A DNA stretch of 8,754 nucleotides from Eubacterium sp. (GTDB lineage Bacteria; Bacillota_A; Clostridia; Lachnospirales; Lachnospiraceae), in the NCBI GenBank assembly GCA_024687845.1, contig JAILEL010000082.1, forward strand, positions 1-8,754, written 5' to 3'. Below the pieces are notes generated by a model. The model searched no databases. It was not told the origin of the DNA and saw only the letters and a list, made by a program, of their open reading frames with translations. Numbering within the stretch: position 1 is the first letter of the stretch; the number at the start of each line of letters is the position of its first letter. Positions 1 to 8,754 of this stretch are shown piece after piece. The position numbers and the translations under genes are program-made.

Positions 1-279
1 ATATTTTTTCTGTTCCTTATCCCTCATATCTATCAGGAGAAGAAACAGAAACAGATAAGTTGAATACCAGCTACTATCTGAAATGTACGAAATATCCGGT
101 GTTGCATCGTAAAACACCATATATAGTTCCCAATATATGTCTCCAAGAAAATATACAAATGACGCAAGACTCAGCATATAAGAAGAACGTTTACCTGAGA
201 GAAGTGCATGACGAAAACACACAGCTGTGCATATTCCCGTCGTTATCAATTGAATGATATTGCAAAAACTCTCAATCAT
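1..279 (-). CDS. Integral membrane protein, N-terminal part (runs off left edge)
   Basis: An open frame of 93 codons starts at ATG 279-277 and is still open at base 1, so the C-terminus is missing. The start lies 2 bases after the TAA of the upstream two-helix gene, with an AGGA about 10 bases ahead inside that gene's end, which suggests translational coupling. The protein begins MIESFCNIIQLITTGICTAV. It shows hydrophobic segments at about 5-22, 33-48 and 78-88, with an aromatic-rich stretch (GDIYWELYMVFYDATP) between them. That pattern is of a multi-spanning membrane protein, and I recall similar uncharacterised proteins in Lachnospiraceae, but I cannot name a family. As the last visible gene of the kinase-sigma operon it may belong to the same envelope-signalling system; that is inference. 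The plus-strand frame over the same bases is best read as a shadow. Confidence 0.7.
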   Translation of the reverse strand, partial: MIESFCNIIQLITTGICTAVCFRHALLSGKRSSYMLSLASFVYFLGDIYWELYMVFYDATPDISYISDSSWYSTYLFLFLLLIDMRDKEQKKY

Positions 280-281
280 GA

Positions 282-614
282 TTATTTATCCTGTTCTTTA
301 TCATCCTTCCACTTCTTAAAACGATAGCAGAATATAGTCAATGATATCCCTAAAAGAAATGCAATTATTCCCGTTACAATAAATCCAAGTACAACATTTT
401 CTGTAAAAATACTACCATTCATAATATTTTGTGAATTCTCATAAACTATATTTTCCTGGAACCCAGACATTTTGTAGGCCGTCAGGATAACACCGACAAT
501 ACAGGCTACAGTAGCAGCAAGATGAACTACAAGGATTTGTTTCATTCTATTCTCTTTTTCAATTTTAGCCGCACGCCTATGCATGGCCTCGATTCTTTCC
601 TCGTTAGTCTTCAT
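282..614 (-). CDS. Small two-helix membrane protein, candidate sigma-factor partner
   Basis: This 110-residue protein starts at ATG 614, preceded by a clear AAGGAA about 9 bases upstream. Residues 1-25 are a charged, probably helical cytoplasmic segment (EERIEAMHRRAAKIEKENR). Transmembrane helices follow at about 26-47 and 74-97, separated by a polar, asparagine-rich outside loop, and the protein ends with a basic then acidic tail (RFKKWKDDKEQDK). It is the next gene after an ECF-type sigma factor, 90 bases downstream on the same strand. Small membrane proteins in that position are often anti-sigma factors, but I see no recognised anti-sigma domain or zinc motif, so the role is inferred from position only. 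The 90-base gap upstream (615-704) holds the ribosome site and no convincing terminator. Confidence 0.75.
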   Translation of the reverse strand: MKTNEERIEAMHRRAAKIEKENRMKQILVVHLAATVACIVGVILTAYKMSGFQENIVYENSQNIMNGSIFTENVVLGFIVTGIIAFLLGISLTIFCYRFKKWKDDKEQDK

Positions 615-704
615 ATATATATTCCTTCATCATCTATATACTTATATCTTTTGTATCACATTTTTCGGATTTTCGCCACACTCATTTATATATAAACTTT
701 AAAA

Positions 705-1247
705 CTATTCTTTTGTAATTCCTTCCTTCTCCAGTTCCCTTCGAAGGTGTTCCTTTCCCTTCTGAAGCAGGCGGTCGATGCGTTTCCTGTTAACCTTCAT
801 GATGTTTGCAGCTTCTATATAACTCATATTTTCAAAATAAACTAGCCACAGTGCCTCTCGGACATCTGCATCTATCCGCTCCATGCAGACATGCAAAATG
901 CTATGCAGGTTCATATCGGATACCTTCTCTTCTAAGGAAAATGTATCAGCAAGCTCTGTTTCCATTTCATCTAGGCTGAAGGCTTCTTTCTTCCTGCTGT
1001 GGAAACGTGTGGCGAGATTACGGGCAGTTTTATAGAGATATGCCTTAAAGCATCCTTCTCCTATGCGTGGTTTTTTTACCATTATCCTCGCAAAGGCCTC
1101 AATCATCATATCTTCTGAATCCTGCCAGTTATGGAGATAAGCATTCATATAGATTGTGAGGCTGTCGCCATATCTTATCATCAATTCATCATATGCAGAA
1201 TTGTTACCTGAAAGAAATGAACTATACAGTTCATCATCATTTTGCAT
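705..1247 (-). CDS. ECF-type RNA polymerase sigma factor (sigma-70 family)
   Basis: This 180-residue protein has the usual ECF length and two-domain plan. Sigma region 2 covers about residues 17-87: the DSEDMMIEAFARIM segment (43-56) is the core-binding 2.2 helix, and FKAYLYKTARNLATRFHSRKK is the 2.3/2.4 part expected to melt and recognise the -10 element. A linker (88-115) leads to region 4 at about 117-172, whose helix-turn-helix (YIEAANIMKVNRKRIDRLLQ) recognises the -35 element. The start ATG at 1247 has a textbook AGGAGG 7 bases upstream. The gene follows the hybrid kinase by only 23 bases and precedes a two-helix membrane protein, so it is almost certainly co-transcribed with both. It has no receiver or other sensory extension, so any control must come from a partner. 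The target promoters are unknown. Confidence 0.93.
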   Translation of the reverse strand: MQNDDELYSSFLSGNNSAYDELMIRYGDSLTIYMNAYLHNWQDSEDMMIEAFARIMVKKPRIGEGCFKAYLYKTARNLATRFHSRKKEAFSLDEMETELADTFSLEEKVSDMNLHSILHVCMERIDADVREALWLVYFENMSYIEAANIMKVNRKRIDRLLQKGKEHLRRELEKEGITKE

Positions 1248-1270
1248 GACATCAGCCTCCTCTCATTACA

Positions 1271-4200
1271 TTATTCCGGGAAAAACTCCATGATTTCATC
1301 ATCGTCATCATCAGAGGTTTTTCCGGTATCATCACTTTCTATCCCCAGAATTTCCACCAGATCATTTACTACCTGCTCATATTTAGCCATCAGTGGTTCA
1401 TAGCCCTTGTCTATAACATTCTCATCACATTCCTTTGAAGCATTTTCCTGCTCCAATGCCATTTCAGATAAGGTATCCGCTCCGATGGTACGTGCAGCGC
1501 TCTTCAGTGCATGAACCTGAATCTTATAATCTGACCAGTTCCTGTCAGCATAATGAGTTCTTATCAGATTTCTCTTCTCCTTCGAAGACTCGATAAATGT
1601 AACAATAAGCTCCTTATAGAATTCTGGATCTTCCATTGCATAGCCAAGTCCTTCCTCTACATTGAAGCCCTTCTCACGAAGCTTTTCAAGAACTTCATTT
1701 TCTGAATGGGACTTTTCAGATGCCTCACTCACTGCAGGCTGTTTTGCATAAGCCTCTTTATTTACTTCCACGAATGTATGGGACTTAATCTTCTGAGATT
1801 CCTGAACGATCATTCCCTCACCATTTGTGGATTCATAACAAGTATAGCTTCCTTCTGGTAAGTACTCACGAAGAGTCTTCTCAAGTGTATCCGGATCAAT
1901 CGGTTTAGAGAGATAATCCTTGAAGCCCTCTGATATATACATTTCCCTTGCACCGGCTATTGCATTTGCAGTCAGCGCTATTACAGCAGTACTTTCATCC
2001 AGCAGTGAGGCTTTACGTATGGCCTTAAGAGTTTCAATACCATCCATATCAGGCATCAGATGATCCATGAAGATGATATCGTAATGCTTCTCCTTTATCA
2101 TTTCTATGGCTTTCTTACCACCATTTGCCAGATCAGGAACGGTGTCAAGACGTTTCATAAGTCCACGGGCAACCTTAAGGTTCATCTCATTATCATCAAC
2201 AACGAGAATATTTGCGTCAACAATATGCATCTGCATGGTACGTTTTCTCAGTTCCTCCGTGTCACGATGACGTTTATATTCACCAAGCGGAGTTGCATCA
2301 ACTATATTCTGAACAATTCTGAAGGAGAAGCTTGAGCCCTTTCCGTATTCACTGCTTATCTCAAGAGAACTTCCCATCAGCTTCAGAATACCATCGACAA
2401 TGGACATACCCAGTCCTGTTCCTTCTATATTACGGTTTCTGCTTTCCTCGATTCTCTGGAAGGATTCGAAGAGCTTCGCCATATCCTCTTCTTTAATACC
2501 GATTCCAGTATCTCTTACCTCAACATAAAGCGTACACTCATTTCCGGAAACGCTTTCATTTCTCATGACAAGGGTAACAGTTCCTTTTTCGGTGTATTTT
2601 ACAGCATTCGTAAGAAGGTTCGTTATTACCTGTCTGACTCTCACATCATCACCATACATGATACGAGGAAGCATCTCATCTATACCAAGTCTGAATTCCA
2701 GTCCCTTCTTTTCCGCTCTGTCGGAGATCATATTTACCAGATTGTCAATCATTTCTGCGGTATCATATTCGACAGAAACGATATCCATCTTACCACTTTC
2801 AATCTTCGAAAAGTCCAGGATTCCATTTATCAGTGAAAGCAGAGTTTTACTGGCGCTCTTGATATCTGACGCATATTCCTTTATGTTGACATCCTCAGAC
2901 TCTCTCAGGATCATTTCATCCATACCAATTACAGCGTTGATAGGAGTTCGGATCTCATGACTCATCTGAGCCAGGAAGTCGGACTTCGCCTTTCCAGCCG
3001 CCTCAGCCTTACTTACCGCCTCGGATAGCTTCTGATTCATATTTGCCTGAGAACGTATAACCTTATTAAGCAGAATAATTATCAGCAAAATAACAACAAA
3101 TGTAATGATAACGTATATTCCCGTATAGAGTATTGGAAGCATATACACTTCCGTCCATTTCCATAAAAGAATAATCGAAAAACCGGTATTCTTATCCTTC
3201 TTGCTGACGCACGCTCTCCTTATATTATCATAATCTTTAAATGTAAATAGACGACCTCTGTCATCACAAGAGGCATCATAATATGGAGTTTTCGTAATAT
3301 TTGTCCTTGAATCACCAACCATCTCATAGTCCTTATTCGGATGATTAATGATATCGCCATTAGGGTCAACCAGGAAAACATATTCGTATTTTGAATAGCT
3401 TTCTCCAAAGATCTGTATAATCTTATCCATATAGAAATCTATTCCGAAGACTCCTAAGAATTCGCCATTTTTGCCATAAACGACCTTTGAAAAGGTTATG
3501 CAGTATTCTCCTGTCTGGGCATCAACATAAGGAGAGGAAATATTATAAGGAGCTTCAGATTTTTCAGTCTGCTTATACCATTCTCTCTCCTCAACCTTCC
3601 AGTCCTCATCAGGCTGCCAGCCATTATTCATGATTATCGCATGCTCACTATAAGGATTTGCCAGGTAGCACACAGAAATGTCTTCGTAATTCTGGGCAAC
3701 ACTGTCAAGCCATTTCACCGCTTCATCATAATCCTCAATAAGCTCTGGTTTTGAAACGATGATATTACTAAACATATTAAGGGTAGTAATCTGTTCCTTC
3801 TCCCATAGGTTCAGCTGATAATAGTATTCATCCAGCCTCTCACTCATCATGTCTACTGAGCCAACTGTACCGGCATCATAGAAGAAGGCTGAACTTATTA
3901 TCATCACAACAAGAAGAAGTAGAACGATTATATTTCTGAAAATACGGATGGTTCTGGAAATGTCATTGTCTTTCTCACGTTTTTCTCTTTTGTTTTTTTC
4001 CAGATTAGAGACAATCGAAGAATACGAACTCAGCTCATTCATTATCTCATTCATTCTGAGACCATTTGTTCTGATGCTCGCAATATCTTCTCCGGTAGGT
4101 ATCCCTTCCTCACTGCTCCAGTCACTTATGCTGATAATGCTATTTAAAGGAGTTTTAAGCTTCTCAAGAATATTCTCAACAAAAACTTCTCTTCCTTCCA

Positions 4201-5134
4201 GCGCCTCTTCTGATCTGATACGGTTTCTTATACCGAAAGCATACATGACAATAATCATAACAAGCATGAGTATATTTATCAGAAAATTTACAGCAATCTG
4301 CTTAGTTATCTCCCTGTAAAGCTCTGTATTGTTAACACAAAGAATCATGTACCAGTTATTCTGGGTAACTGAATGGAATACAGTATTTCTCGTGCCTGCA
4401 ATCTTCTCTATAAATGATTTATCATTATTGTTCTGTTGAACATTCATGAATACATTTACATAATCAGGCAGGGATTTATTTATATCCTTACCAACAAAGG
4501 ACATATCTGAATATCCCGCTATAAGTCCCTCCTGAGTTACAATCATTGCAACACTTCCATCACTCAGGGACATTTTTCCGATAGATTCCTGAATCTCAGA
4601 AAGCGTAAAGTCCATAGCAACCACAGTTTCATTGTCCGAAAGCATGACAGACATTGTAAAACACATTTCACCGGTCATGCTGTCTATATAGGGATCTGTG
4701 ATAAATATATCTCCTGCGCTGTCAATAGCACCGACATACCAGTTTCTTTCTGTAGCATGGTAGTCATCCGGAGCATCGAAGTCCGGAATTATCTGCCATC
4801 CCTTGCCTGCGACATAAACATTGAAGTTTATACCATTCGTTATCTCAAGCTGAGTTTTCTTCTGCGAAATGATGTATTTTTCCAGAGCTGCTCTGTCATC
4901 GTCTTCGTCCTTCAGCTGTTCTGCTCCTACAGCAACTCTGAAAAGAGAGTTTTCTGCGCTCGCGATATAATTTTCAAAATCTGTTTTTATACTACTTATC
5001 TGAGTCTGACCTACCTGCTCAGTCTGGTTCACCATCGAGCGGATAATAAGCCTTGAATTTATAACAATAATGACCACAAATGTGATCACAAGAGCTAATA
5101 TAATTGCCAGATCAGTTTTACGGATTTTTCTCAT
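1271..5134 (-). CDS. Dual-dCache membrane hybrid histidine kinase (HisKA-HATPase-REC-HPt)
   Basis: This 1287-residue protein is a complete phosphorelay in one chain. In order: TM about 9-31; first extracytoplasmic dCache about 36-278; TM about 281-303; a vestigial HisKA-like helix pair about 309-378, with LEKLKTPLNSII where an active domain has SHEIRTPINAVI, so Glu324 stands in for the phospho-His; TM about 400-419; second dCache about 424-662; TM about 664-690; a short coiled linker; active HisKA with H726; HATPase with N843, D875 (DTGIGI) and GTGLG at 905-909; receiver with D980/D981, phospho-acceptor D1024 (FMDHLMP), T1055 and K1077; HPt with H1208 (HALKSAARTIG). The tail is acidic, with five Asp in a row. 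Both sensors keep the R-x-W-Y signature of amino-acid-binding dCache domains. Start: ATG 5134 has GAGG 6 bases upstream. An in-frame GTG at 5206 has no ribosome site and lies in a repeat arm. The sigma gene follows after 23 bases. Confidence 0.95.
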   Translation of the reverse strand: MRKIRKTDLAIILALVITFVVIIVINSRLIIRSMVNQTEQVGQTQISSIKTDFENYIASAENSLFRVAVGAEQLKDEDDDRAALEKYIISQKKTQLEITNGINFNVYVAGKGWQIIPDFDAPDDYHATERNWYVGAIDSAGDIFITDPYIDSMTGEMCFTMSVMLSDNETVVAMDFTLSEIQESIGKMSLSDGSVAMIVTQEGLIAGYSDMSFVGKDINKSLPDYVNVFMNVQQNNNDKSFIEKIAGTRNTVFHSVTQNNWYMILCVNNTELYREITKQIAVNFLINILMLVMIIVMYAFGIRNRIRSEEALEGREVFVENILEKLKTPLNSIISISDWSSEEGIPTGEDIASIRTNGLRMNEIMNELSSYSSIVSNLEKNKREKREKDNDISRTIRIFRNIIVLLLLVVMIISSAFFYDAGTVGSVDMMSERLDEYYYQLNLWEKEQITTLNMFSNIIVSKPELIEDYDEAVKWLDSVAQNYEDISVCYLANPYSEHAIIMNNGWQPDEDWKVEEREWYKQTEKSEAPYNISSPYVDAQTGEYCITFSKVVYGKNGEFLGVFGIDFYMDKIIQIFGESYSKYEYVFLVDPNGDIINHPNKDYEMVGDSRTNITKTPYYDASCDDRGRLFTFKDYDNIRRACVSKKDKNTGFSIILLWKWTEVYMLPILYTGIYVIITFVVILLIIILLNKVIRSQANMNQKLSEAVSKAEAAGKAKSDFLAQMSHEIRTPINAVIGMDEMILRESEDVNIKEYASDIKSASKTLLSLINGILDFSKIESGKMDIVSVEYDTAEMIDNLVNMISDRAEKKGLEFRLGIDEMLPRIMYGDDVRVRQVITNLLTNAVKYTEKGTVTLVMRNESVSGNECTLYVEVRDTGIGIKEEDMAKLFESFQRIEESRNRNIEGTGLGMSIVDGILKLMGSSLEISSEYGKGSSFSFRIVQNIVDATPLGEYKRHRDTEELRKRTMQMHIVDANILVVDDNEMNLKVARGLMKRLDTVPDLANGGKKAIEMIKEKHYDIIFMDHLMPDMDGIETLKAIRKASLLDESTAVIALTANAIAGAREMYISEGFKDYLSKPIDPDTLEKTLREYLPEGSYTCYESTNGEGMIVQESQKIKSHTFVEVNKEAYAKQPAVSEASEKSHSENEVLEKLREKGFNVEEGLGYAMEDPEFYKELIVTFIESSKEKRNLIRTHYADRNWSDYKIQVHALKSAARTIGADTLSEMALEQENASKECDENVIDKGYEPLMAKYEQVVNDLVEILGIESDDTGKTSDDDDDEIMEFFPE

Positions 5135-5139
5135 AGGAT

Positions 5140-5144
5140 TCCTC
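5140..5144 (-). promoter_or_regulatory. Ribosome binding site that fixes the kinase start
   Basis: On the minus strand GAGGA lies 5-6 bases before ATG 5134, a good Shine-Dalgarno spacing. The longer in-frame reading that starts at GTG 5206 has no purine-rich site ahead of it. It would also add 24 polar residues encoded partly by the arm of the structured repeat. ATG 5134 gives a normal membrane-protein start (MRKIRKTDLAIILALV). I therefore chose it. Confidence 0.75.
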
Positions 5145-5164
5145 GATACAGACTTAAGAGTTTC

Positions 5165-5177
5165 TTGTATAATACAA
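5165..5177. promoter_or_regulatory. Short palindrome TTGTATAATACAA overlapping possible -10 elements
   Basis: A perfect 6-bp inverted repeat around a central A lies between the kinase start and the structured repeat. It contains TATAAT on the plus strand and TATTAT on the minus strand, so it could be the -10 of a kinase-operon promoter about 35 bases upstream of ATG 5134, possibly overlapped by an operator. The hexamer at the correct -35 distance on the minus strand (AACAAG) is poor, so the promoter call is weak. Confidence 0.25.
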
Positions 5178-5192
5178 ACATTGTTGTTATAC

Positions 5193-5423
5193 TTGTTACT
5201 ATTCACGGTTTATGAGATAGGTAGCAAAAATGACTGCTCGCAGGCACTTTTTGCTTACCTATCTCATAATACCTGCGAAGCAGGAACTCAAAAAGTATGA
5301 TTCAGTGCCTCCGTAGGAGGCAATAGAACATCGAATATTAGGCTTATTTAAGCTTGCTTAAGGATAAGCCATATTCGATGTGGACTTAAGAATACTTTTT
5401 GAGTTAACCGTGAATAGCAACAA
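5193..5423 (+). repeat. Structured repeat, copy A (candidate non-coding RNA or mobile element)
   Basis: This 231-base element folds almost completely. Outer arms 5193-5210 and 5406-5423 pair at 17 of 18 positions (core CTATTCACGGTT). A long hairpin pairs 5211-5230 with 5248-5268 (20 bp, one bulge), with the loop TGACTGCTCGCAGGC at 5231-5245. A second closing stem pairs 5285-5298 with 5392-5405 (14 perfect bp). It encloses a 7-bp hairpin, TGCCTCC-GTA-GGAGGCA (5306-5322), and a long three-part hairpin (5328-5381) capped by a G-CTTG-C tetraloop. The first loop can also pair with 5272-5283 (CCTGCG, one bulged A, AGCAG), giving an 11-bp pseudoknot. Unpaired GATTCAG (5299-5305) and GGACTTAAGA (5382-5391) are identical in copy B. 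It lies between the divergent kinase and peptidase genes and, read on the plus strand, would be in or upstream of the peptidase leader. No coding content is evident. I do not recognise the family. Confidence 0.88.
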
Positions 5424-5451
5424 TTGGTTACATTCTTTTTACTAATATAAG
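5424..5451 (+). promoter_or_regulatory. Possible promoter for the M13 peptidase gene
   Basis: TTGGTT (5424-5429) and TATAAG (5446-5451) are 16 bases apart, directly after the outer arm of copy A and about 85 bases before the peptidase start. A second TATAAT at 5494-5499 has no good -35 partner. If the first pair is the promoter, copy A lies upstream of the transcript rather than in its leader. Confidence 0.3.
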
Positions 5452-5479
5452 TGGATAACGATGAGGAAGGTAAATACGC

Positions 5480-5503
5480 ATGAACCTTTTCATTATAATT
5501 TGA
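5480..5503 (+). other. Possible 7-codon leader ORF upstream of the peptidase
   Basis: ATG 5480 opens a 7-codon frame (MNLFIII) that ends in TGA at 5501-5503, in the same frame as the peptidase. It has a stronger ribosome site (GAGGAAGG, 5463-5470) than the peptidase start itself. It could be a translated leader, a remnant of an upstream start cut by the TGA, or chance. Confidence 0.2.
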
Positions 5504-5536
5504 AATCAAGTTTGTTACAATAACTTTTTACAAGTA

Positions 5537-7681
5537 ATGGGGTTAAATTGTATGAATTTACGATTGGGGACTGGAAAATATACTTTAAGGCGTATTATTG
5601 CATTTTTTCTATGCATTGCGCTTGTTTTTTCTGTCACAGGATGCGGGAACAAAGCTTCTGATAGTTCCTCAAAAAATTCTGATGAATCTGATAAATCCTC
5701 CAGTAGTTCCGAAAAAACCGGAAAGAATGCCTGGATTGATTCTGAGATTGCTGAAAATGCAGAAGCTGCCGGAAACTGCCGTCTACAGGATGATTTTGCC
5801 GCAGCTGCCAATGCTGAGTGGCTAAAAAACGAGGAGTACAGTACTTATTATGGAAATGGTACATTTGCCGAAGCTGCTGTAATTGTTAATAAGAATAAGC
5901 GCGCAATGCTTGATGATAAGAGCCTGAGCGGTAAGAACCTGGAGCTGCTCCGTACCTTCGACGAGCTATATGACTGGGATTACCGAAATGAGATTGCTCT
6001 TAAACCTATCGAAAAATATCTTGCATATATCGATGAGATAAATTCCATCGATGATGTTTCAAGCTACATGCTTGATAATAGTAAGAATCCTTTTGCTACT
6101 ATGTTAGTTGGCGTCACAACTTCCAAGGTTGATACCATGAAGGATAATCTATGTCTTACTATCACTCAGCCCAAATATTCCGCGGGCGAATCCAAAGTTT
6201 ACTTTTCAATGACTGATGAGGAATTTCAGAAACTCGAGGATTGTGACAAAGAAGTTGGCTATATTCTCGGAAGACTGGGATACTCTGATGCAGAAATAAA
6301 AACACTCGCTAAAAAATGTCATGCATTTGAAAATAAAATGGCTGACATCAATTATAACGGTGAATATGAATATTACCAGAACGAAGTTGTTTCTAAGGAC
6401 GAGCTTATCAAATATGCCAGGAATTACCCGCTAAATGATCTACTCGAGCATTATAAGCTTGGTAATGAAAAGCATTATACAGGAGACTACAAATATCTCA
6501 AGGGTATCGGAAGGCTTTATACTGAAAAAAATGTAGAAGCTATGAAGGCTTATTTCAAATACCGCCTTATCAATCAGTCCATGTATTATCTGGATAAGGA
6601 GTCTATGGATAAATACAGAGAACTATATCAGGACATAACCAATCAGTTTTCTGAGGTTGTCGACAGATATCCTGACAGAGCTGAATTCCTTATCATCAGC
6701 GAGACACCTCTTAAGGCCGCCATGGATCAGGCATATCTGGATACATATTTTGATGAGAGAACCTACAACGATATCGTAAATCTCACTGATATGATAATTG
6801 CCGAATACAAAACCATGCTAAGGGATAAGGACTGGATTTCTGAAGAAAATAAAGAAAGCATATGTAAGAAGCTGGACAATATCTGTTACAACATAATCCG
6901 CCCGTCTAATGAACCGGATTTCGGCGATATGCAGTTTATTTCTAAGACTGAGGGTGGAACTCTCCTTGATGCTGTATGTGTATTAAACAGATTCAAAATT
7001 GAAAACTATACAAATGCTGTTTCGAGACCTCTCGACAGAGGTTTCTGGGATATCTATAGCGAGCAGGATTCAACAACCGAAGTAAATGCATTTTATTCAC
7101 CATGGCTTAACTCTCTATGTATAGATGCTGGAATTCTGTGTGGAGATTTCTACTCTTATGACTGGCCCCTTGAACAGAAGCTTGGCCGTATCGGAGTCAT
7201 TATCGGACATGAGATATCACACGCATTTGATTCTAATGGTGTTTATTATAACGAAGAGGGCGATTACAAATCCATCATCGAAGGAAATGATATGAGCACA
7301 TTTAGCGAGAAAGCCAGCAAAGTGGATGCTTATTATGATGGATATTCTCCATTTGAAGGAGCTGCCGCCTATAATACCTCTAAAAACAGAGTAAGTCCCG
7401 AAGCCATTGCTGATATGGGTGGTATGAAATGCGCTTTAAATATTGCAAAGAAGCAAGGCAGTTTTGACTATGACCTGTTTTTCAGAAGTTTTGCAAGCCT
7501 GTACAAATGCCTGACAACCAAAAGTAATGAGGTTGACTGTGTCAATTCTGACCCTCACCCACTGCAGTTTCTCAGGATAAATGTTACTGTTCAACAGTTC
7601 GATGAATTCTATGAAACCTATGATGTGAAGCCAGGTGATAACATGTACCTCGCACCCGAAGACAGGATTGCAATCTGGTAG
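5537..7681 (+). CDS. M13 family (neprilysin/PepO-like) zinc metallopeptidase, lipoprotein
   Basis: This 714-residue protein has a basic N-terminus, a hydrophobic helix (about 20-33) and the lipobox SVTGC with Cys36, then a Ser/Asp/Lys-rich spacer (41-64). It is probably lipid-anchored on the outside of the membrane. The M13 N-domain begins near 83 (DDFAAAANAEWL). Catalytic-domain marks are NAFY (517-520, substrate-binding Asn-Ala), zinc motif HEISH (558-562) with catalytic Glu559, third ligand Glu622 in EAIADMGG with Asp626, His674 and Arg680 near the end, and the family's C-terminal pattern closing in IAIW. All key residues are intact and the length is normal for the family, whose members cut short peptides. 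The start is uncertain: ATG 5537 and ATG 5552 (M6) both leave a proper signal peptide, and neither has a strong ribosome site, though GGGG lies 9 bases before 5552. The structured repeats A and B flank the gene, and B begins within about 10 bases of the stop. Confidence 0.94.
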   Translation: MGLNCMNLRLGTGKYTLRRIIAFFLCIALVFSVTGCGNKASDSSSKNSDESDKSSSSSEKTGKNAWIDSEIAENAEAAGNCRLQDDFAAAANAEWLKNEEYSTYYGNGTFAEAAVIVNKNKRAMLDDKSLSGKNLELLRTFDELYDWDYRNEIALKPIEKYLAYIDEINSIDDVSSYMLDNSKNPFATMLVGVTTSKVDTMKDNLCLTITQPKYSAGESKVYFSMTDEEFQKLEDCDKEVGYILGRLGYSDAEIKTLAKKCHAFENKMADINYNGEYEYYQNEVVSKDELIKYARNYPLNDLLEHYKLGNEKHYTGDYKYLKGIGRLYTEKNVEAMKAYFKYRLINQSMYYLDKESMDKYRELYQDITNQFSEVVDRYPDRAEFLIISETPLKAAMDQAYLDTYFDERTYNDIVNLTDMIIAEYKTMLRDKDWISEENKESICKKLDNICYNIIRPSNEPDFGDMQFISKTEGGTLLDAVCVLNRFKIENYTNAVSRPLDRGFWDIYSEQDSTTEVNAFYSPWLNSLCIDAGILCGDFYSYDWPLEQKLGRIGVIIGHEISHAFDSNGVYYNEEGDYKSIIEGNDMSTFSEKASKVDAYYDGYSPFEGAAAYNTSKNRVSPEAIADMGGMKCALNIAKKQGSFDYDLFFRSFASLYKCLTTKSNEVDCVNSDPHPLQFLRINVTVQQFDEFYETYDVKPGDNMYLAPEDRIAIW

Positions 7682-7689
7682 TATGATGT

Positions 7690-8033
7690 CACTATTCACA
7701 GTTGATAAGAATTATGCATAATTGGTTATGACTGCTCGCAGGCTAAAACCACATATGCATAATTCTTATCGTACCTGCGAGTTAGCCGTCGATTACACAG
7801 TAATCGATGGTCCGAACGAAGTGAGGATGCGTTCTGCGTAGCAGAACCAAGGCTTGCACAGCAAGACTTGCATATCACGCAGTGATATGGCACAAGCAGG
7901 TGACTCAAAACCCACGATTCAGTGCTGCGTTAGCAGCGATAGAGCATCGCATATAAACTTATTTATGCTTGCATAAGAATAAGTGTTATGCGATACGGAC
8001 TTAAGAGTGGGGTTTGAGTCAACTGTGAATAAT
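7690..8033 (+). repeat. Structured repeat, copy B (with extra hairpin module)
   Basis: A second copy of the element at 5193-5423, in the same orientation, with the same layout but largely different stem sequences. Outer arms 7693-7703 and 8021-8031 pair (TATTCACAGTT, 11 bp). A perfect 17-bp hairpin pairs 7704-7720 with 7754-7770, extended by TGGTT/AACCA, with the loop TGACTGCTCGCAGGC at 7729-7743 identical to copy A. A second closing stem pairs 7902-7915 with 8007-8020 (13 of 14). Inside it are a hairpin with a GTTA loop (7924-7937) and a long hairpin (7946-7994) capped again by G-CTTG-C. Shared unpaired motifs are GATTCAG (7916-7922), ATAGAGCATCG (7940-7950) and GGACTTAAGA (7997-8006). Compared with A, about 115 bases are inserted at 7780-7894. 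The element fills nearly the whole gap between the peptidase stop and the next gene. There is no U-run typical of an intrinsic terminator, although the structure could still affect transcription or mRNA decay. Confidence 0.87.
7786..7889 (+). repeat. Array of five abutting triloop hairpins inside copy B
   Basis: Five hairpins follow one another with few or no spare bases. They are 7786-7810 (TCGATTAC-ACA-GTAATCGA plus wobble and CC/GG extension); 7811-7827 (TCCGAAC-GAA-GTGAGGA, with a tandem G-A mismatch); 7831-7847 (GTTCTGC-GTA-GCAGAAC); 7848-7870 (CTTGC-ACA-GCAAG, extended by CAAG/CTTG across one mismatch); and 7871-7889 (CATATCAC-GCA-GTGATATG). Stem sequences are unrelated, but every loop is a purine-N-A triloop closed by C-G. 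Copy A has no such module here, only a single base. Confidence 0.85.
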
Positions 8034-8063
8034 AACCGTAAAAGTAAAGAATAGGACGAAAAA

Positions 8064-8754
8064 ATGGGAAAACTAATCTGGAATGATATAAAAAGATGCC
8101 TTACCTTAAAAAGGTTCTGGGCGTTATTGATTCTTTCAGAAGCACTTCTGATAGGCTGCGTGATTGATGCTAAAACCACTTTCTTAAATTATTTTGTATA
8201 TACCACTGAGATTCATGAGTTTATAGTATTAGTCTTTAATATGATAGCAGGTGCGACTGCATTTATCTGCCTGTATAAGCGTAACTTCACGCTTAAATCT
8301 ATCGAGCAGTCAGAGGCGCTTGGGGGAAGAAGGTTTCCTATTGTCCTGTCCAAATGGATATCCGGAACTATCATCATATTCATGCAATATGCCATTCTTG
8401 GTATTTCCATTCTTTTGTTAGGCAAAATAATTGGTGCTGACAGTCCTGCCATGCATATCAAAGCACTGATACTTCTGGTATTCTATAACATGGTAGCGGC
8501 AATCGGGAGCTTCGGTTTTTCAATGATCTCATTTTTCCTGATACCATTTCCTCTTGTGCCTATTACAGTATACGGACTATTCTTGTGGATTTATTCGCTG
8601 ATCATTCATTATACTACTATCAGAGGACTTAGAGCAGTCATATATACAGCTGCAATGGAAGGCTATACAGATAATATGATGGGTTGCATTAATGTTAAGA
8701 TAATAGTAATATTCTTGGTGTATGCGTTCTGCTCACTCGTATTATCCTATGGAA
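8064..8754 (+). CDS. Multi-spanning membrane protein, probable ABC-2-type permease (runs off right edge)
   Basis: The frame opens at ATG 8064 with AGGA at 8053-8056 and stays open for 230 codons to the window end, so the C-terminus is missing. Predicted membrane helices lie at about 17-34, 53-71, 99-120, 132-158, 160-182 and 211-229. A cytoplasmic segment (72-98) reads IEQSEALGGRRFPIVLSKWI. Its form, acidic residue, then R, then a hydrophobic stretch and SK before a helix, resembles the loop of ABC-2-type permease subunits in bacterial export systems. That suggests a transporter permease, but no ATP-binding subunit is visible in the window, so the family call is moderate. Only about 30 bases separate it from copy B, so its transcript either starts within the repeat or reads through from the peptidase gene. 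Confidence 0.72.
   Translation, partial: MGKLIWNDIKRCLTLKRFWALLILSEALLIGCVIDAKTTFLNYFVYTTEIHEFIVLVFNMIAGATAFICLYKRNFTLKSIEQSEALGGRRFPIVLSKWISGTIIIFMQYAILGISILLLGKIIGADSPAMHIKALILLVFYNMVAAIGSFGFSMISFFLIPFPLVPITVYGLFLWIYSLIIHYTTIRGLRAVIYTAAMEGYTDNMMGCINVKIIVIFLVYAFCSLVLSYG

Follow-up and report, generated by a model that had tools for sequence, protein, structure and literature searches.

Two copies of a structured, possibly modular intergenic element with compensatory stem changes in a Lachnospiraceae contig

BOX repeats of Streptococcus pneumoniae (boxA-boxB-boxC) are described as small intergenic elements with terminal inverted repeats and a strong predicted RNA fold; their middle module may be missing or multiplied with little disturbance of the rest, and several BOX elements are expressed (PMC3049150). 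We analyzed an 8,754-nt stretch of Eubacterium sp. (Lachnospiraceae; assembly GCA_024687845.1, contig JAILEL010000082.1, positions 1 to 8,754; "the window" denotes this whole stretch, not the element alone) and found in it two related structured copies, A and B, of an element that, judged by its general features, may be like BOX in kind: both copies are intergenic, carry terminal inverted repeats and fold strongly, and B has a module that A lacks.

Integron attC sites offer a second point of reference. An attC site works as a folded single strand in which sequence is poorly conserved, structure is conserved and the size of the terminal part varies (PMC2727003). Copies A and B resemble attC in flanking a gene as direct copies, but their fold is multi-branched rather than one interrupted hairpin, and no integrase was found among the six open reading frames (ORFs) of the window that were scanned for Pfam domains. 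The outer boxes of attC follow the consensus RYYYAAC...GTTRRRY; the outer arms of A and B, CACGGTT...AACCGTG and CACAGTT...AACTGTG, have the opposite polarity and do not match it. The ends of IS200/IS605-type elements and the REP elements are palindromic single-stranded DNA (ssDNA) substrates of HUH enzymes and form short hairpins, whereas no Y1/HUH gene was seen among the same six ORFs. The large branched structure is a trait shared with the large ornate bacterial RNAs ROOL, GOLLD and OLE, all of which are larger than A and B; A and B had no match to these families in Rfam even at E values up to 1. By its name, ROOL is 'rumen-originating' (PMC12286853). The comparison with Rfam agreed with the first-pass annotation, which could not match the element to a named family: none of the 4227 families of Rfam 15 matched at the gathering threshold. 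At E values up to 1, the only hits were to two miRNA-like families, and we rejected them because their scores fall far short of the threshold: MIR5148, on the minus strand at stem 1 of B, with 25 of 93.5 bits, and mir-1256, elsewhere, with 22.1 of 70 bits.

The existence of two related copies, proposed in the first-pass annotation, was confirmed when A and B were folded separately and gave the same branched core. Copy A occupies positions 5193-5423 on the plus strand (231 nt) and is made of an outer stem, stem 1, a small hairpin and a three-way-junction arm. Copy B, whose extent had been given as 7690-8033, was corrected to about 7687-8036 on the plus strand (350 nt); it contains the core of A and, additionally, a 114-nt module. 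Taken with a few flanking bases, A folded with a z-score of -11.90 (0 of 200 shuffles as good) and B with a z-score of -10.55 (0 of 100 shuffles as good), while A folded with DNA parameters reached -15.0.

The common core consists of an outer helix, stem 1, a CCTGC/GCAGG helix and a second long helix (ACTCAAAA.../...TTTGAGT), inside which a three-way junction bears two hairpins, the small one and a long one with G(CTTG)C at its end. The junction arm of A (5299-5391, plus strand) reads GATTCAGTG, small hairpin with a GTA loop, ATAGA, long hairpin with the G(CTTG)C loop, and GGACTTAAGA. The arm of B (7916-8006, plus strand) has the single-stranded motifs of A, with GTTA as the loop of the small hairpin and G(CTTG)C again on the long one. 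In A, the CCTGC/GCAGG helix (5272-5284, plus strand) forms a simple hairpin that has the loop GAA and contains GCGAAGC. In B, the same helix (7774-7778 with 7896-7900) closes the module at 7781-7894 on the plus strand, which has a z-score of -5.52 by itself and hairpin loops ACA, GAA (weak), GTA, ACA and GCA. Thus, the claim that the copies share a layout held outside 7781-7894 and failed for the 114 extra nucleotides there; in these two copies, the inner module measures 114 nt in B and is missing from A.

Both copies are bounded by terminal inverted repeats with 18-nt arms. In A, the arms at 5193-5210 and 5406-5423 (plus strand) are 94% complementary, and in B the arms at 7688-7705 and 8019-8036 (plus strand) are 89% complementary. 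TATTCACNGTT occurs in all four arms, in inverted form in the right-hand ones, and is preceded by TGTYRC in three of the four. The outermost arm bases of B were unpaired in the plus-strand fold and paired, partly through G-U, in the fold of the minus strand.

The stems named in the first-pass annotation as differing by compensatory changes were all present. The outer pair is G5207-C5409 in A and A7700-T8024 in B, the second stem changes from AGTAT/ATACT to CCCAC/GTGGG, the small hairpin from TGCCTCC/GGAGGCA to GCTGC/GCAGC, and the long hairpin from CATCGAATAT/ATATTCGATG to ATCGCATA/TATGCGAT. In a joint structure of 69 pairs, all 138 cells were paired; 15 pairs had changes in both partners, 2 had a change in one partner only, and 0 were broken; 0 of 500 shuffles reached these counts, and structures slid by 1-3 columns paired only 35-41% of cells.

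Since the joint structure was fitted to both sequences, the projection of one copy's fold on the other is the fairer test. The fold of A gave 91 usable pairs in B, of which 57 were unchanged and 34 changed. Among the latter, 18 differed in both partners, 2 differed in one partner only and 14 were broken, so that 20 of 34 were kept, compared to a mean of 11.9 in letter shuffles (9 of 10,000 as good). In the reverse direction, with the 114-nt module of B left out, there were 76 usable pairs (54 unchanged, 22 changed), and 18 of the 22 were kept: 16 both-sides changes and 2 one-side changes versus 4 breaks, a result matched by 0 of 10,000 shuffles. The 14 breaks of the A-on-B projection fell in upper stem 1 (five), the small hairpin (four), the base of the outer stem (two) and single positions (three). 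Those in the small hairpin arise because the alignment is out of register by one base there, the pairing of B itself being shifted by one base; the single breaks include the C-G pair at the outer end of the long hairpin, replaced by C.A in B.

The covariation had been called direct evidence that the fold is selected. The covariation stood; the word "direct" was too strong, because two copies make one comparison and allow no family-wide covariation test. The covariation is most likely due to selection that acts on the fold, either in RNA or in ssDNA, and the shape is probably conserved by selection. Template switching can also yield multi-base compensatory changes without step-by-step selection (PMC8794818), and two blocks of neighboring changed pairs fit that mechanism (alignment columns 26-29, and 112-116 except 115).

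The loop of stem 1, at 5230-5245 in A and 7728-7743 in B (both on the plus strand), is the same 16-mer, ATGACTGCTCGCAGGC, in both copies; in the alignment, this 16-mer, GATTCAGTG, ATAGA and GGACTTAAGA are identical while the stems differ. The identity of these long motifs is the conservation evidence that we rely on. Within the loop, TCGCAGG (5238-5244 in A, 7736-7742 in B) is complementary over 7 nt to CCTGCGA (5272-5278 in A, 7774-7780 in B). Judging by this complementarity, the invariant loop could pair with the downstream ACCTGCGA in competition with the local helix. The long-range pairing and the CCTGC/GCAGG helix would be mutually exclusive because both use the same bases, among them those of the GCGAAGC-containing hairpin of A. 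Covariation speaks neither for nor against the long-range pairing since both partners are identical in A and B.

With respect to location, A and B occupy the two gaps bordering an M13-family peptidase gene (5537-7681, plus strand), in the same orientation, and each lies between genes of unrelated kinds. A gap of 113 nt separates the end of copy A from the listed start of this gene at 5537; copy B begins 5 nt past its stop codon and ends 27 nt before the listed start of the next gene at 8064. The similarity of A and B ends at the outer arms, where extension of the repeat stops. Beyond that point, resemblance between the 150-nt flanks of the two copies is at the level of shuffled sequence (76 of 100 shuffles as good on the left, 93 of 100 on the right).

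In the reading that we tentatively favor, A and B represent one modular, structured intergenic element that has boundaries of its own, is restricted to a lineage and is BOX-like in kind. The outer arms suggest an interspersed modular repeat, as do the end of similarity there, the location of both copies between unrelated genes and the presence of the module in B alone. Also in favor are the core fold recovered from each copy by itself, the covariation, the identical 16-nt loop, GATTCAGTG, ATAGA and GGACTTAAGA, and the excess of GNA/GNNA loops on the plus strand described below. Such an element would most likely act as a folded single strand, probably the plus strand, with the outer helix joining its ends. 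Stem 1 would present the invariant loop, which may act as a two-state switch: in one state it would be paired with ACCTGCGA further downstream, in the other ACCTGCGA would stay in the local helix. The variable module would tolerate additional hairpins, and the three-way-junction arm would show GATTCAGTG, GGACTTAAGA and the G(CTTG)C loop to a partner. By analogy with BOX, a small element of this type may have spread between genes and be transcribed along with its neighbors; the fold may help the element to spread, stabilize the transcript, or do both.

A number of observations weigh against this reading. Concerning mobility, only two copies are known, both within 8.75 kb, and no transposase, integrase, recombinase or Y1/HUH gene was found among the six ORFs scanned. 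BOX insertions create target-site duplications, while inspection by eye of the flanks of A and B, the two known copies, showed none; old copies may have lost them. The argument from unlike flanks is weakened as well, since A and B diverge by about 25% and flank similarity could have decayed regardless. The higher conservation of unpaired columns depends on the definition of "unpaired". When each copy's own fold was used, 33 of 37 columns unpaired in both copies were identical, compared to 111 of 155 columns paired in both (Fisher p 0.033); under the joint structure, the order was reversed (58 of 88 unpaired versus 106 of 138 paired), since this structure leaves the upper part of stem 1 among the unpaired columns.

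The choice of the RNA form and of the plus strand meets further objections. G-U pairs made up 1 of 94 pairs in A and 3 of 125 in B (4 of 219 in total, or 1.8%), all others being Watson-Crick. In E. coli ssrA (at the position we take it to occupy), ssrS and rnpB, folded likewise, they made up 14 of 103, 6 of 61 and 15 of 124 (9.8-13.6%), a yardstick of three RNAs from another phylum. The minus strand folded with slightly lower energy than the plus strand in both copies (-108.6 versus -107.3 kcal/mol for A, -147.9 versus -144.6 kcal/mol for B) and with more extreme z-scores (-14.5 for A and -12.0 for B, on stretches of slightly different length), whereas the reverse strands of the three E. coli RNAs fold 9-15% worse. 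Promoter matches around A and B stayed at chance level in consensus scans (at B, 2 sites versus 1.6 expected by chance), and no plus-strand terminator was found after either copy. Finally, the ssDNA form has against it that G(CTTG)C, found in both copies on a stem that covaries, is known as a stable tetraloop of RNA.

The plus strand is probably the relevant one, on account of loop type and of the position before plus-strand genes, not of folding energy. Among loops of 3-4 bases, GNA or GNNA loops accounted for 6 of 12 on the plus strand (GAA and GTA in A; GAA, GTA, GCA and GTTA in B) and for 0 of 11 on the minus strand. In shuffles they accounted for 77 of 632 short loops, which gives a binomial p of 0.0016 for 6 of 12 (0.0066 without the weak GAA of B), on the assumption that loops are independent, which is not wholly true of A and B, as their loops are related. 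The shuffles also had fewer short loops, 632 in 150 pairs or 4.2 per pair versus 12 here; therefore, the shuffled maximum of 3 is no fair yardstick. Mini-hairpins of this type on G-C stems, for example GCGAAGC, which occurs in A, are described as extraordinarily stable in DNA (PMC4686876). Altogether, the results on RNA versus ssDNA point both ways.

The main rival to a BOX-like repeat, though an unlikely one, is a pair of paralogous non-coding RNA genes, transcribed from -10-like sites and acting by protein binding or as a conformational switch. The covariation, the identical loop motifs, the conserved G(CTTG)C loop and the possible long-range pairing all speak for such genes. Moreover, -10-like hexamers stand before both copies at the same distance within 1 nt: TATACT at 5188-5193 (plus strand), directly before A, and TATGAT at 7682-7687 (plus strand), directly before B. 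Both are weak: the former was picked by eye and is not among the consensus-scan matches, with TTGTAT as a poor -35 box 17 nt upstream, and the latter has AAGACA 17 nt upstream (9/12). What tells against RNA genes is that promoter-like matches are no commoner here than in shuffled DNA, that the terminator search after both copies was negative and that G-U pairs are scarce by comparison with the E. coli RNAs. The exact-motif scan of a genome collection returned no true relative, which would be odd for an inherited RNA gene if the motif is essential.

We consider it improbable that A and B are ssDNA recombination or transposition sites, with the folded plus strand as the recombinase substrate and the M13 peptidase gene as an integron-like movable cassette. 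Two same-orientation copies do bracket one gene, with B right behind its stop codon, and the outer inverted arms, the almost pure Watson-Crick pairing, the equal folding of both strands and the DNA-stable GNA/GNNA loops, including GCGAAGC, all suit a DNA substrate. On the other hand, a recombinase was absent among the six ORFs scanned, and the peptidase gene resembles its neighbors in base composition (GC 0.394 versus 0.397 and 0.375). The outer arms run GTT...AAC inward, opposite to the attC boxes, and both copies exceed the usual attC size. A fuller version, likewise improbable, would have an undescribed recombination or transposition system of rumen-type Lachnospiraceae, in which the copies are large folded ssDNA sites around the peptidase cassette and the recognition code combines covariation that is strictly Watson-Crick, an invariant loop able to exchange partners, and GNA/GNNA loops that are stable in DNA and confined to one strand.

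Leader elements in the 5' untranslated regions of the downstream plus-strand genes, controlling the M13 peptidase and the membrane protein, are a still more doubtful reading. Each copy does precede a plus-strand gene, at the distances given above, but these genes differ in kind (an M13 peptidase and a protein with no Pfam match), no plus-strand terminator was seen, and the riboswitch and leader families in Rfam gave no match. Least probable of all is a fold without function, in which quasi-palindromes are held matched by template switching in replication (a mechanism described in PMC8794818): the block-wise changes, the near absence of one-side or G-U intermediates and the equal folding of both strands agree with it, but it leaves the identical 16-nt loop, GATTCAGTG, ATAGA and GGACTTAAGA unexplained while the stems differ, even if overall loop conservation is definition-dependent.

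The genes around the element were assigned by the Pfam scan of the six ORFs. The minus strand carries a large hybrid histidine kinase (ORF 1271-5206) with Cache-type sensor domains, a receiver and an Hpt domain; next to it are two small ORFs that match no Pfam family and a small sigma-70-like factor (705-1247). By eye, the ATG at 5134 is a likelier start of the kinase than 5206; with the start at 5134, copy A is non-coding. On the plus strand, the M13 peptidase has a lipoprotein-like start by eye, and only the beginning of the last protein, from 8064 on, lies in the window; it looks membrane-like. The closest named relatives of the peptidase were from Butyrivibrio sp. AE2032 (50% identity), a Lachnospiraceae metagenome-assembled genome (MAG; 50%) and a Saccharofermentans MAG (48%), and one further relative had 98% identity. 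The minus-strand ORF at 7726-7908, which crosses B, was rejected as a gene as it had no homolog.

Two side observations concern the surroundings of A. The piece at 5144-5161, CGATACAGACTTAAGAGT, located 31 nt before A, between A and the likely kinase start, is identical at 17 of 18 positions to 7991-8008 of B. It scores 15 versus a best score of 14 in 20 random windows, and the resemblance suggests that it may be a relic of a further copy. In addition, a sigma-70-like promoter match, TTGTAA-17-TATAAT (5520-5492, minus strand, 10/12), points towards the histidine kinase, the number of such sites being at chance level; with a promoter there, A, reversed, would sit in the leader of the kinase transcript.

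No third copy was accepted in the searches for relatives, which are weak negatives, being made with exact patterns and with search model R1 on sequences other than Lachnospiraceae chromosomes. In the species-genome collection, an exact pattern of the loop and CCTGCGA, which would miss diverged relatives, had a sole match, in a Deltaproteobacteria MAG (L001). It was judged a chance match because it lies beside a CRISPR-like array without the rest of the element. That array, seen by eye at about 2100-2433 of L001, has a repeat of about 36 nt. Model R1 had 0 matches at E up to 0.01 in 40 genomes of that match's kin (around G001), an uninformative result. Eight patterns searched in viral contigs gave 0, 4, 0, 3, 5, 7, 22 and 2 stretches, 43 in total, of which 12 were read and folded; when all 43 and L001 were searched with R1 at E up to 1, the sole match (L017, 12.2 bits, E 0.3) was not accepted. 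With blastn, A had no match in plasmids at 1e-5 or in phages at 1, and B had none in phages at 1e-5; five short matches of B in plasmids at 10 were judged chance.

Of three Butyrivibrio plasmid records (one of them L002), R1 matched one, pCY186 of Butyrivibrio proteoclasticus, in two places. The better match, 64 nt at 53098-53161 (1501-1564 of locus L012), had 12.7 bits and an E value of 0.108 over the record, or 0.016 and 0.0036 when short loci alone were searched; the other had 10.1 bits (E 0.596). The 64-nt match comprises stem 1 with the loop piece AAATGACTG and a GCTGC-AAA-GCAG hairpin. It was rejected as a third copy for want of the outer helix and junction arm, and is a possible remote relative of stem 1 alone. 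A protein search with the ORF crossing B, aimed at copies miscalled as genes, gave no candidate, and a plasmid search with the histidine kinase found no Lachnospiraceae record among the best 60 of at least 5000 matches. Literature on structured RNAs and intergenic repeats of Lachnospiraceae or Butyrivibrio had no such element among the matches listed, subscription papers being mostly outside coverage.

The element carries mixed marks: an RNA-type tetraloop stands next to DNA-type triloops, almost no G-U pairs and equal folding of the two strands, and it is this combination that raises the question of RNA or single-stranded DNA. A structured element that matches no Rfam family and shows covariation inside a single window may serve as a good entry to an undescribed family, of RNA or of DNA recombination, in gut or rumen Clostridia.

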